NCBI GenBank assembly: GCA_030602615.1
Contig: JAUVZM010000001.1
Span: 1-64,000 of the forward strand
DNA length: 64,000 nucleotides
Source: a bacterium
GTDB lineage: Bacteria > Armatimonadota > Zipacnadia > Zipacnadales > Zipacnadaceae
Reading direction: 5' to 3'
Both the position numbers and the translations under genes were made by a program. This document shows, one piece after another, positions 7,838-15,614 of this stretch. Below the pieces are notes generated by a model. It was not told the DNA's origin, ran no database searches, and saw nothing but the letters and a program-made list of their open reading frames with translations. Each line of letters begins with the position of its first letter. Within the stretch, counting starts at the first letter, position 1.

Positions 7838-9377
<1,540 letters not shown>

Positions 9378-9436
9378 CTAAGGAGTAGGTTGCCATCACA
9401 AGATGGCAGACTAGGTCGACCAAGATTCGCTAGACG

Positions 9437-9457
9437 CACGCTATTCGCTTTTCGAGG
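9437..9457 (+). other. 3' arm of the 16S processing stalk
   Basis: Pairs with 7743-7763 as described there. It lies 60 nt after the 16S 3' end and about 100 nt before the intrinsic terminator. Confidence 0.75.
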
Positions 9458-9558
9458 ATCGCCAGCAAAACATGCGAGGCGGACTGACACAACGAAATTC
9501 CTTGATGGCAAACAATTGAAGCCGTAAGGACACAGTCAGAGGATGGAGTCTGCCCACC

Positions 9559-9590
9559 ACGAGGGGGCTTGATCCCCCTCGTTTTTCTGT
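9559..9590 (+). terminator. Intrinsic terminator between 16S and tRNA-Ile
   Basis: The stem acgaggggg / ccccctcgt (9 bp, 6-nt loop) is followed by tttttctgt. It has the full form of a Rho-independent terminator but lies inside the rRNA operon, upstream of both tRNAs, 23S and 5S. Confidence 0.85.
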
Positions 9591-9673
9591 GTTACGTTAT
9601 ACGCGCACCTTGAAAGCAGTATAGTGCACATAGGCGACAGCTATAGTGGTGCTGGATTGTGCAAGGGACTGGG

Positions 9674-9750
9674 GGGCAATTAGCTCAGTTGGCTAGAGCG
9701 CGCCCCTGATAAGGGCGAGGTCCCTGGTTCGAATCCAGGATTGCCCACCA
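9674..9750 (+). tRNA. tRNA-Ile (GAT)
   Basis: The 77-nt cloverleaf has acceptor gggcaat / attgccc, anticodon loop ctgataa with GAT at 9708-9710, a TTCGAAT T-loop and an encoded CCA. Spacer position between 16S and 23S is typical for tRNA-Ile. Confidence 0.97.
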
Positions 9751-9846
9751 TTTAACACCAGACAACGGCAGAGGACGACGGAAAAGGGCAGACAACGACA
9801 GATAACGGCGGAACCTGTCCACTGGCCACTATCCACTGTCCGTTTT
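9751..9846. repeat. tRNA spacer with imperfect repeats and a CCACT-type element
   Basis: Two imperfect copies of a gacaacg-cagannacgnCGG motif lie at about 9762-9812. At 9817-9843 a run of ccact units (ccactggccactatccactg) follows; it resembles elements at 13381-13417 (inverted) and 13578-13612 in the other rRNA spacer. Confidence 0.55.
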
Positions 9847-9922
9847 GGGGACGTAGCTCAGTTGGGAGAGCGCCTCCCTTGCACGGAGGAGGTCACCGGT
9901 TCGAGCCCGGTCGTCTCCACCA
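9847..9922 (+). tRNA. tRNA-Ala (TGC)
   Basis: The 76-nt cloverleaf has acceptor ggggacg / cgtctcc with one G-U pair, anticodon TGC at 9880-9882, TTCGAGC in the T-loop and an encoded CCA. It is the second spacer tRNA of the rRNA operon. Confidence 0.97.
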
Positions 9923-10078
9923 GCCTTCGCTCAACTGCGTTGAGCTACGGCCGGCTTCGCCATAGATGTCGGCAAGCAAGCCGCGGCAGGCAGGCTGCTA
10001 TCGGTAATTAGTCATCAGCTATTCGGGGTATATTCTCTAATAGCTGATCAGTAGTTGCCGCAACCAGTGCACCTTGAC

Positions 10079-10115
10079 AACTGCATAGGACAAGTAAAGC
10101 CGTTTACAATGAGCC
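10079..10115 (+). other. 5' arm of the 23S processing stalk
   Basis: aactgcatagga (10079-10090) and acaatgagcc (10106-10115) are complementary to tcctatgcagtt (13348-13359) and ggctcattgt (13324-13333) downstream of 23S. An extra aaagccg / cggcttt pairing lies between them. This is the RNase III-type stalk for 23S maturation. Confidence 0.75.
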
Positions 10116-10129
10116 GAGGGATATTGTGT

Positions 10130-13308
<3,179 letters not shown>

Positions 13309-13323
13309 CTATTGCACTTATTA

Positions 13324-13359
13324 GGCTCATTGTCGGCTTTGCTTCGTTCCTATGCAGTT
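13324..13359 (+). other. 3' arm of the 23S processing stalk
   Basis: Pairs with 10079-10115. It begins about 15 nt after the 23S 3' end. Confidence 0.75.
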
Positions 13360-13380
13360 ATGAAGGTGTACTGTGACAGC

Positions 13381-13612
13381 AGTGGACAGTGGTTAGTGGC
13401 GAGTGGATAGTGAACGGCACGCATTCTGTGCTGAAGAACCTGCTCGCCGGATATTGGGGGCCGGGCACTCCTCAGGCATTGTGAGAGGGGAGCCCCGTAG
13501 ATTATAGATATTGTGGGAGAGGCACTCCCCAGGCATTGTGGGAGGGGCACCCTTGCCCCGATCAGCCGTAGCCGTAACTGACCACTAACCACTAGCCACT
13601 AACAACTGGCCG
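13381..13612. repeat. 23S-5S spacer filled with two kinds of short repeats
   Basis: The spacer between 23S and 5S is about 315 bp, much longer than usual. It holds agtgg/ccact-type elements at 13381-13417 and, in opposite orientation, 13578-13612. Between them are two copies of a ggcactcc-caggcattgtg-gagggg motif (13464-13496 and 13521-13552). No gene is visible in it. Confidence 0.6.
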
Positions 13613-13623
13613 TACCCCTTTTT

Positions 13624-13739
13624 CCCGGTGACGATAGCGGAGGGGCCACACCCGTTCCCATTCCGAACACGGCAGTTAAGCCCTCCTGCGCCGATGGTAC
13701 TATGGGGGCGACCCCATGGGAGAGTAGGTCGTCGCCGGG
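13624..13739 (+). rRNA. rrf: 5S ribosomal RNA
   Basis: The ends cccggtgac and gtcgccggg pair as helix I. The internal ccgttcccattccgaacacggcag and the gagagtagg near the 3' end are standard 5S landmarks. Length about 116 nt. Confidence 0.95.
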
Positions 13740-13762
13740 GTTTTGCTTTGCCTTTTTCCCAG

Positions 13763-13821: not shown

Positions 13822-14136
13822 ATGGACGTTGAACCTATACTACAACAACTGAAGCAGCGGCTGCAGGAGTTATACGGCGAGCGGCTCAAGGGCCTGTATC
13901 TGTTCGGCTCGCACGCCCGCGGCGAGGCCAGCACCGACTCCGATATTGACGTGGCCGTCATCCTCGACGACTTCGAGTCCGTGGGTGCCGAGATTGACCG
14001 GACGAGCGAGATCGTCGCCGATCTGAGCCTGCAGCACGAGTGCGTTGTGGCCCTGGTGCACTTGCGGGAGGCTGACTGGCAACAGCGCCGCAGCTCGCTG
14101 CTCATAAACCTGCAGCGCGAAGGAGTGGCGGTGTGA
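13822..14136 (+). CDS. MNT-type minimal nucleotidyltransferase (HEPN/MNT antitoxin family)
   Basis: This 104-residue protein has the pol-beta-fold signature GSHARGEASTDSDIDV: G29-S30 and the metal-binding pair D41/D43, with a third carboxylate expected in the beta-strand near ECVVALV (about 73-79). In HEPN/MNT pairs this protein transfers AMP to the HEPN RNase toxin and silences it. Here the partner, starting in a GTGA overlap, is only a stub (next entry), so the antitoxin seems orphaned. The gene has its own start (GGAGG about 9 nt upstream at 13809) and lies just after the rRNA operon terminator. Confidence 0.85.
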   Translation: MDVEPILQQLKQRLQELYGERLKGLYLFGSHARGEASTDSDIDVAVILDDFESVGAEIDRTSEIVADLSLQHECVVALVHLREADWQQRRSSLLINLQREGVAV

Positions 14137-14192
14137 CCAATGACGAGATCGCCGGGTTGCTGGACAAGGCGCGAGACAGCATTGGCTCTTTC
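14133..14192 (+). pseudogene. Remnant of a HEPN-domain toxin gene
   Basis: A GTG overlapping the MNT stop (GTGA) opens a frame that begins TNDEIAGLLDKARDSIG, the usual first helix of HEPN proteins in MNT pairs. It then runs into sequence with no HEPN character and no RxxxxH motif. The frame ends after 62 codons inside the promoter region of the next gene. The most likely reading is a 3' deletion that removed the toxin core. Alternatively the stub may be translated only for coupling. Confidence 0.55.
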
Positions 14193-14229
14193 TCGCGCCA
14201 CTTTGCTCCCCTCGGATACCCCCTTTCAT

Positions 14230-14259
14230 TTGACTTTTTGCCCACAAATAGACTATACT
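14230..14259 (+). promoter_or_regulatory. Promoter upstream of the Cys-protein/presenilin-like pair
   Basis: TTGACT (14230-14235), an 18-nt spacer and TATACT (14254-14259) lie about 80 nt before the ATG at 14342. It begins right where HEPN similarity is lost. Confidence 0.6.
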
Positions 14260-14341
14260 TTTGGGGCTTGTACCGGACAAACTGCCGTCCAATGGGAGGC
14301 TCTCACACCCTCAGTTTATGAGCTGAGGAGTTAGCACCTAT

Positions 14342-14680
14342 ATGGCTACTTTGGTAGACAGGATCCGCGATCTGCTGCTGGGCCAGCCTGACGAGAATAA
14401 CAACAGCAACGCGCCAGCGCTGCGGATTACTGTACAATGTGATTGCGGCCAGAAGATAGCGACGCGCATCGAAAAAGCCTACGAACTCCAGGAACAATAC
14501 CTGCCCGCTGCAGATACAGATACACCACCCACCGTCGCCGGCTATGTGCTGAAGAAGGACCTGGTAGGGAGTTGCTGCCACGGTCCGGTGCGGGTGACCG
14601 TGCATTTCGACGCCGACAAGCGGCCCACCGACCATACTGTGGAAGGCGGCCAGTGGCTGTCGGCAACAGAATGTGCATAG
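14342..14680 (+). CDS. Small cysteine-containing protein of unknown function
   Basis: The 112-residue product is not recognised. A possible N-terminal amphipathic helix (MATLVDRIRDLLLG) is followed by a beta-rich segment with cysteines in CDCGQK (about 34-36) and SCCHGP (about 77-79). This spacing could form a metal site (Cys-x-Cys ... Cys-Cys-His) but that is inference. There is no signal peptide or membrane segment, so it should be cytoplasmic. It lies 40 bp upstream of the presenilin-like protease, on the same strand and behind the same promoter, which suggests they act together. It could be a substrate, adaptor or unrelated passenger. Confidence 0.65.
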   Translation: MATLVDRIRDLLLGQPDENNNSNAPALRITVQCDCGQKIATRIEKAYELQEQYLPAADTDTPPTVAGYVLKKDLVGSCCHGPVRVTVHFDADKRPTDHTVEGGQWLSATECA

Positions 14681-14720
14681 ACGCCGCCGCATCCGCGTCC
14701 GGTGAGCGGAGGCAACCGCA

Positions 14721-15614
14721 ATGAGTGAGGTCAGCGGGGCAGACGCCGCCCGTAGCTGGGTGTTTTTGCGCTCGCCAGTGGGGAAATTGGTCCTGCTGGC
14801 GATTTGCATATATGTCCTGTTTGTGGCCACCCCGCTGGTACCCATTCCCCCCGGATACGGGCCGATTGCCGTCTGGGCCGGATCACTTCTGGCCACATTG
14901 CTGCTGGCGGCGTTGTCGGTGATGCTGATTGTCAATGGCGCCCGCCTGCATCTATCAGTAGCCCGTGAAGTAGGTTTGGTGGCTGTCTCAGTGGGCCTGT
15001 GGCTGGGCCTGACCAGACTGGCCGGCCAAAGCCACCTTAATCGCCTGCTCATCGCGCCCGTTGCTACCGTAGTCTTCCTGCTGGCGTGCTTGTGGCTGGG
15101 ACGGGTGATATCACGGCTGTTCCGGACAAGCAGCATTCTGCTGCCAGCCTGCGCAGCCGTGGCGCTGGCCGACATCTTCACCGTCTACGCCGGACCTACC
15201 GGTATGATGCTGCAGAAGTACCCCGAATTCGTCCAGAGCGTCTCGGTGGCCATCCCTGAGATCGGTTCGGCGGTCGGGGCTGAGGGACTGGCCGGACTGG
15301 CAGTGTCCAACTTCATCGGCCTGGGCGACTTCATATTCCTGGCCGCGCTGCTCGGCGCAGCCGCCCGGTTCCGATTCGACCTGGTGCGCACTGCTTGGTT
15401 AGTGTTGACAGCGGCAGCGGTGGGCATGGCTATCCAGTGGCTGGTCCCCACGTTGATGGGCGTTCCGCTGCTGCCATTTATCGCCGGGGGGTTTGCGGTA
15501 GCCAACTGGGGCCAGTTCCGCCTGACTCGCCCGGAGAAGAAGGCCATGGGGCTGGCGGCCCTGATTATTGGCCTGCTTGTGGTGGTGGCCTGGATATTGG
15601 CCCAGGTGTTATGA
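14721..15614 (+). CDS. Presenilin/SPP-like intramembrane aspartyl protease (GxGD family)
   Basis: This 297-residue protein has about 8-9 hydrophobic segments. It carries GLGDFIF at residues 200-206, nearly identical to the presenilin GLGDFIF block that holds the second catalytic Asp (D203). The first catalytic Asp is likely D151 in ALADIFTVYAGPTG, which aligns with presenilin YDLVAVLCPKGP, with the Tyr replaced by Ala. A PxxP segment (PLLP, 249-252) sits where the PAL motif is expected but is not a clean PAL. Length fits archaeal presenilin homologues (about 300). The predicted role is cleavage of membrane-spanning helices. Prepilin peptidases also have GxGD, but their flanking residues and N-terminal cysteines differ. 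Bacterial members are little studied. Confidence 0.75.
   Translation: MSEVSGADAARSWVFLRSPVGKLVLLAICIYVLFVATPLVPIPPGYGPIAVWAGSLLATLLLAALSVMLIVNGARLHLSVAREVGLVAVSVGLWLGLTRLAGQSHLNRLLIAPVATVVFLLACLWLGRVISRLFRTSSILLPACAAVALADIFTVYAGPTGMMLQKYPEFVQSVSVAIPEIGSAVGAEGLAGLAVSNFIGLGDFIFLAALLGAAARFRFDLVRTAWLVLTAAAVGMAIQWLVPTLMGVPLLPFIAGGFAVANWGQFRLTRPEKKAMGLAALIIGLLVVVAWILAQVL

Follow-up and report, generated by a model that had tools for sequence, protein, structure and literature searches.

The window analysed here, a stretch of 64,000 nucleotides, belongs to the draft genome (2.45 Mb, 83 contigs) of a bacterium of the class Zipacnadia, phylum Armatimonadota. It carries a two-gene unit, both open reading frames of which were found where the first-pass annotation had placed them, together with a promoter-like site ahead of them:

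14230..14259, forward strand: sigma-70-like promoter ahead of the two genes, sequence TTGACT-18-TATACT, agreeing with the consensus at 10 of 12 positions
14342..14680, forward strand: small-protein gene, ATG start, 112 amino acids
14721..15614, forward strand: protease-homologue gene, ATG start, 297 amino acids, polytopic membrane protein with about nine transmembrane (TM) helices

The two genes are separated by 40 nucleotides, and a GGAGG sequence precedes the second ATG. Among three aligned relatives of the same genus, the promoter-like site is present in L031 and L034 and differs in L032. The Ka/Ks ratio ranges from 0.14 to 0.20 for the protease gene (six pairs from four sequences) and from 0.18 to 0.24 for the small gene (three pairs from three sequences), values that suggest purifying selection on the two genes.

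The distribution of the protease was surveyed with two profiles, namely A1, which comprises 39 members from the class (fragments L040, L041, L046 and L047 and the duplicates L031-L034 having been dropped), and A4, which comprises 85 phylum-wide members and from which 11 of the 39 class members were dropped. In the class Zipacnadia, the gene is present in 41 of 46 genomes, including all 22 of high quality, and the A1 profile detected it in 269 of the 291 Armatimonadota genomes (186/194 of the high-quality ones). Since eight high-quality genomes gave no match, some members of the phylum can probably live without the protease. No match was obtained in G178 and G179 (genus g99, 1.5-Mb genomes) or in G251-G253 (genus g131), all of which are 97% complete and may represent natural losses of the gene. 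With the A4 profile, 273 of 397 genomes matched; by subtraction, 106 of these genomes belong to other phyla, and four of the 106 were among the matches. A single one, G304, harbours a real homologue (262 residues, ADIWSV..FGLGD..PGIP), the other three being short matches in unrelated proteins that were judged to be due to chance. All three genomes of the small bacterial phylum of G304 possess a homologue, and these are the sole clear homologues found outside Armatimonadota; in one of the corresponding loci, L132, the gene is followed by a GAF-GGDEF gene. Neither the plasmid search nor the scan of viral contigs revealed a relative of the protease. The protease family is a core gene of Armatimonadota and is rare elsewhere in the genomes sampled. 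Two tandem copies, both with the Asp residues and a GPGD motif, were noticed in G066 (L112:3723-5618).

With regard to the surroundings of the unit, a complete 16S-tRNA-Ile-tRNA-Ala-23S-5S operon (7839-13740) is located directly upstream, and two open reading frames lie between this operon and the small gene:

13822-14136: nucleotidyltransferase reading frame, matched by PF01909 (49.6 bits) and by NCBIfam MntA (49.2 bits, below the cut-off of 60)
14133-14321: reading frame of 62 residues, no Pfam match at E ≤ 10

A broken toxin-antitoxin locus had been proposed to adjoin the unit. This proposal is confirmed in part: the first of the two reading frames is a nucleotidyltransferase, and the identity of the 62-residue reading frame as a toxin is unproven. 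Downstream of the protease gene, the window carries folK, ftsH and tilS on the opposite strand. The same order is found in L031 and L034: as in the window, the unit is preceded by the 23S-5S genes and followed by the folK-ftsH region. L031 has a SNF2-Mrr gene after the 5S gene and ahead of the unit, in the place of the nucleotidyltransferase remnant of the window, and it is again similar to the window from about 140 bp upstream of the small gene onwards; the 13822-14321 stretch may be a site where defence-like genes are swapped. Because the flanking order is kept while the 5S-to-unit interval differs in L031, this interval is variable and the unit itself is old. The earlier suggestion of a recently arrived module had to be abandoned, given the occurrence of the protease in 269 of 291 genomes and the flanking order shared by L031 and L034, and we infer that the protease gene has descended vertically. 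The leucyl-tRNA synthetase gene (leuS) comes after the protease in 39 of the 101 loci whose neighbourhood was analysed, of which 96 have at least 600 nucleotides of downstream sequence; it is on the same strand in all 39 and adjacent in 38, and its identity was checked with Pfam on three of them.

The distribution of the small upstream gene is much narrower. A search with profile A5 (26 rows, two fragments and the duplicates having been dropped) found it in 28 of the 291 genomes of the phylum, all belonging to the class Zipacnadia and to the order of the window. In 28 out of 28 cases, it lies directly upstream of the protease gene on the same strand, at a distance of 44-234 nucleotides from match to match. 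A 29th match, in G068, fell inside a frame of 579 residues and was dropped as a chance match. Outside the genus, the small proteins share only 25-45% identity with that of the window; C33, C35, G36, I39, R42, L70, K72, G76, C79, G102 and G103 are invariant in all 26 rows. The Cys residues concerned are found at two sites:

14438..14449, forward strand: CDCG (C33, C35, G36), a Cys-x(1-2)-Cys-Gly knuckle conserved in 26/26 members, with weak Pfam zinc-ribbon matches
14576..14578, forward strand: third invariant Cys, C79, 26/26

The best of these zinc-ribbon matches have E-values of 0.004-0.005, and the commonest type was obtained with 14 of the 26 members. The set of Cys consists of one CxxC or CxC and one further invariant Cys; zinc-ribbon proteins hold zinc by means of two Cys pairs. 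No TM segment was detected in the small protein, the best 19-residue Kyte-Doolittle mean being 0.62, and an AlphaFold2 model built from four rows had a low pLDDT of 50.7 and was set aside. On the basis of these sequence features, it is best read as a soluble, zinc-ribbon-like, lineage-specific accessory protein of the cytosol, which might equally act as an adaptor, a regulator or an inhibitor. The first-pass annotation had listed cofactor, inhibitor and substrate as its potential roles. Co-conservation with the protease was confirmed for part of the class, and a role as substrate is unlikely for a protein devoid of a TM segment, the soluble and zinc-ribbon-like character pointing instead to an accessory function.

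It might also be argued that the protease is what we propose and that the small gene, far from encoding a partner, is unrelated to it and is maintained next to it by operon inertia. This explanation, which we regard as possible though doubtful, gains from the fact that the small gene is missing from 13 of the 41 protease-bearing genomes of the class and from the rest of the phylum. It accounts less easily for a gene that remains directly upstream in every case despite the low identity outside the genus, and that keeps this place while the downstream gene varies (folK versus leuS). Judging from this conserved arrangement, the small protein looks like a real partner of the protease.

The membrane protein itself was examined in an alignment of 167 sequences from 166 loci, 165 of them from Armatimonadota and two (L132 and L137) from the phylum of G304. 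This set consists of the homologues whose positions were listed and fetched, rather than of all matches, and one row shorter than 200 residues was dropped from it. The sites that stand out are as follows:

15171..15173, forward strand: D151, first proposed catalytic Asp, identical in 167/167 and situated in the hydrophobic segment at about 140-157
15318..15329, forward strand: GLGD (200-203), which contains the second proposed catalytic Asp, D203; G200 and D203 in 167/167, segment at about 198-215
15465..15476, forward strand: PAL-like motif PLLP (residues 249-252), located where the eighth proposed helix begins, P249 in 159/167 and L251 in 156/167
15534..15536, forward strand: E272, Glu of the loop that precedes the final TM helix, 166/167 with one gap

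The GLGDFIF block pointed out earlier is present at residues 200-206 of the window protein, as is the region of the first catalytic Asp (ADIFTVYAGPTG, residues 150-161). Among the 85 members of A4, only the D151, G200, D203 and E272 columns are invariant, and F206 (165/167), G127 (163) and N262 (159) are near-constant in the full alignment. The constancy of E272 equals that of the proposed catalytic Asp, and we know of no counterpart of this residue in presenilin or SPP. Residue 202 is Gly in 115 sequences and Ala in 52, giving GxGD and GxAD motifs, respectively. The latter represent natural GxAD active sites, at the residue equivalent to the disease site Gly384 of presenilin-1. An exact PAL motif occurs in 75 of the 167 sequences and PxL in 149, the version of the window being degenerate. 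A Tyr or Phe ahead of the first Asp is found in only 27 sequences; the window protein has A150 and thus departs from the usual (Y/F)D. Altogether, the traits of A22/GXGD enzymes that were found are two invariant Asp in consecutive hydrophobic segments, the GXGD motif and, in degenerate form, PAL.

The first Asp is accompanied by both a GxGD/GxAD motif and P-x-[LMI] in 158 of the 167 sequences. The distance from D203 to P249 is 46 residues, as is the median over the alignment, compared with 48 between D385 and P433 of presenilin-1. The spaced motif alone was also present in 24 of 884 other stop-to-stop reading frames of at least 200 residues, a set that contains many shadow frames and, by the filter applied, no polytopic membrane protein, and is hence not a polytopic control. 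As a pattern, the spaced motif is loose rather than rare, and it is because the motifs are conserved that they represent more than chance.

The alignment-averaged hydropathy displays eight main segments, one of which (229-258) is long enough for two helices, TM7 and the PAL helix, bringing the number to about nine. The fifth of these segments contains D151 and the sixth D203, and an extra TM helix is suggested after the PAL helix. In the short loops that border the pair of Asp helices, the mean number of Lys and Arg is 2.0 (131-139) and 2.6 (216-223), and it is 2.6 in the 37-residue loop between these helices. When loops are summed and the terminal tails left out, the presumed cytosolic side is the richer in Lys and Arg in 159 of 167 sequences, with four ties. 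The flanking charges thus predict a position outside the cell for the loop that joins the Asp helices, as in the orientation of SPP, an assignment that is supported but not proven.

An AlphaFold2 model of the protease from five rows reached a pLDDT of only 49.8, and a Foldseek search with this low-confidence model returned noise (best E 0.72). The relative position of the helices was approached by a mean-field covariation analysis of the 167-sequence alignment (effective number 134), with a shuffle and variable-column control. After this control, the antiparallel Asp-helix registers 353-357 ranked 9, 16, 26, 27 and 30 of 2069, D151 and D203 summing to 354, and the residue pair 137-218 (sum 355) came second among single pairs. 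These ranks lend modest support to the prediction that the two Asp lie at equal depth and face each other. The PAL helix opposite D203 ranked 1 of 1864 in a first scan, a result that was distrusted because conserved columns inflate such bands; after the control, its ranks were 66 and 107 of 2069. The best rank of the PAL helix against the D151 helix after the control was 44.

Turning to known families, the window protein alone matched the presenilin model PF01080 at E 0.45, below the cut-off, and had no match in NCBIfam or in the PDB. When the 39 class members were searched one by one at E up to 1, seven matched PF01080 (best E 0.024) and three matched PF04258 (best E 1.7e-5), the SPP/SPPL model; the numbers for the 85 members of A4 were likewise seven and three. 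Across the 291 Armatimonadota genomes, PF04258 gave 18 matches at E ≤ 1, of which the best two, and at least seven overall, fall on the protease gene. The only one above the cut-off is that of G023 (24.7 bits against 23.3, profile positions 138-248), which is on the protease gene; three archaeal controls also matched in this search, all under the cut-off. The archaeal SPP model PF06550 yielded 17 matches in 16 of the 291 genomes, none of them above the cut-off, and none of the ten matches that could be placed was on the protease gene. Searched against the PDB at E ≤ 10, the class profile gave a single match, human presenilin-1 (E 0.048), with the region from GLGDFIF to PALP aligned. The best of the seven matches of the phylum profile was presenilin-2 (E 0.077) and the last was presenilin-1 (0.83), the five others being unrelated proteins. 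Taken alone, these PDB E-values are not significant.

The motifs, their conservation and the PF04258 matches on the protease gene sustain the initial proposal of a presenilin/SPP-like GXGD protein. We consider it very probable that the family is a divergent bacterial branch of the presenilin/SPP (GXGD, MEROPS A22-type) intramembrane aspartyl proteases and that Armatimonadota retain it as a core gene; its proteolytic activity is predicted from sequence. Homology to the presenilin/SPP family and the helix register are each supported, short of proof. A less probable, indeed unlikely, explanation is that of an idle or transport-like membrane protein, which would have acquired a GXGD fold by descent or by convergence and would use its Asp for ion binding or structure. 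The replacement of the second Gly by Ala in 52 of 167 sequences, the frequent lack of Tyr or Phe before the first Asp and the weakness of the PDB profile matches are in keeping with it. However, both Asp, G200 and the Pro and Leu of the PAL-like motif belong to the positions that vary least, as an active site predicts, and the PF04258 matches on the protease gene also argue against such a protein. Type 4 prepilin peptidases and FlaK (A24) resemble the family in having GXGD and two Asp, and they are not known to carry a PAL motif. A relative of these prepilin/preflagellin peptidases, cutting at the membrane surface, is largely refuted and most improbable: although A24 enzymes are prokaryotic and also GXGD, their Asp are in soluble regions and the PAL-like motif is one described for presenilin and SPP (PMC2947513), and no better match to a prepilin peptidase or transporter family arose among all 16 families matched by the 39 class members or the best 25 of the 38 matched by the 85 phylum members, A24 being absent from both sets.

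As a presumed presenilin/SPP-type protease, the Armatimonadota protein can be compared with the characterised representatives. It resembles PSH/MCMJR1 of Methanoculleus marisnigri in being a single-gene, prokaryotic, polytopic protein with two Asp in adjacent TM helices, GXGD and PAL (PMC2947513). PSH differs in being archaeal and in retaining YD, and its Asp are in TM6 and TM7 of the crystal structure, according to the review PMC12067869; furthermore, the archaeal model PF06550 has no above-cut-off match in Armatimonadota. With human presenilin-1 and presenilin-2, which gave the best PDB profile matches, the window protein shares GLGDFIF, identical over seven residues. The spacing between the two Asp is 52 residues, as opposed to 128 in presenilin (D257/D385), implying a much shorter loop, and this catalytic loop is predicted in the opposite orientation. 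In addition, the window protein has E272 and a predicted extra C-terminal TM helix, and hydropathy suggests that its Asp are in the fifth and sixth segments rather than in TM6 and TM7. SPP/SPPL is alike in terms of motif set, profile matches and predicted orientation, which goes with type II substrates (PMC7366577). Unlike the window protein, SPP has (Y/F)D and QPALLY (PMC7366577). The same source places the N-terminus of presenilin in the cytosol and that of SPP in the lumen, with opposite catalytic centres; the N-terminus of the Armatimonadota protease would be cytosolic by charge, with one N-terminal helix fewer predicted than in SPP.

With regard to mechanism, D151 and D203, located in neighbouring helices, would together activate a water molecule for the cleavage of a helical substrate positioned next to the PAL-like helix. 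Since the predicted orientation is SPP-like, type II (N-in) substrates are expected, such as signal peptides after their removal or membrane proteins of type II topology. In some members of Zipacnadia, the cytosolic zinc-ribbon-like protein would probably bind the cytosolic face of the enzyme as an adaptor or a regulator. From the orientation and the housekeeping distribution, we infer that the turnover of type II or signal-peptide segments is the likeliest role. SppA (PF01343) is also present in 43 of the 46 genomes of the class, including that of the window, so that signal peptide turnover need not depend on the protease.

The 2010 archaeal paper (PMC2947513) describes YD, GXGD, PAL and the archaeal enzymes, and reports the existence of such proteases outside eukaryotes as new; in its consulted parts, it claims no bacterial presenilin-type protease apart from prepilin peptidases. 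A 'bacterial' presenilin homologue is mentioned in passing in the review PMC8396450, and in our own reading this is the archaeal PSH. The main text of the paper naming Zipacnadia does not contain the word 'presenilin'. Among the open-access papers listed by the literature searches, no report of a presenilin-type enzyme in Armatimonadota was found.

We can tentatively propose a broader picture, in which this would be a housekeeping presenilin/SPP-type protease of a bacterial phylum and of a small candidate phylum, representing a line that diverged early within the presenilins and has an inverted topology, and to which one order would have added a dedicated cytosolic zinc-ribbon subunit in a gamma-secretase-like organisation. 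The distribution suggests a routine role in bacteria for a kind of enzyme otherwise described chiefly in eukaryotes and archaea, presenilin being the enzyme behind the amyloid peptides of Alzheimer's disease. Such a family would supply a natural GxGD/GxAD active-site series (115 and 52 of 167 sequences) and, being near-universal in its phylum, would offer genetic systems for the native role of these proteases, their substrates and a possible protein subunit.
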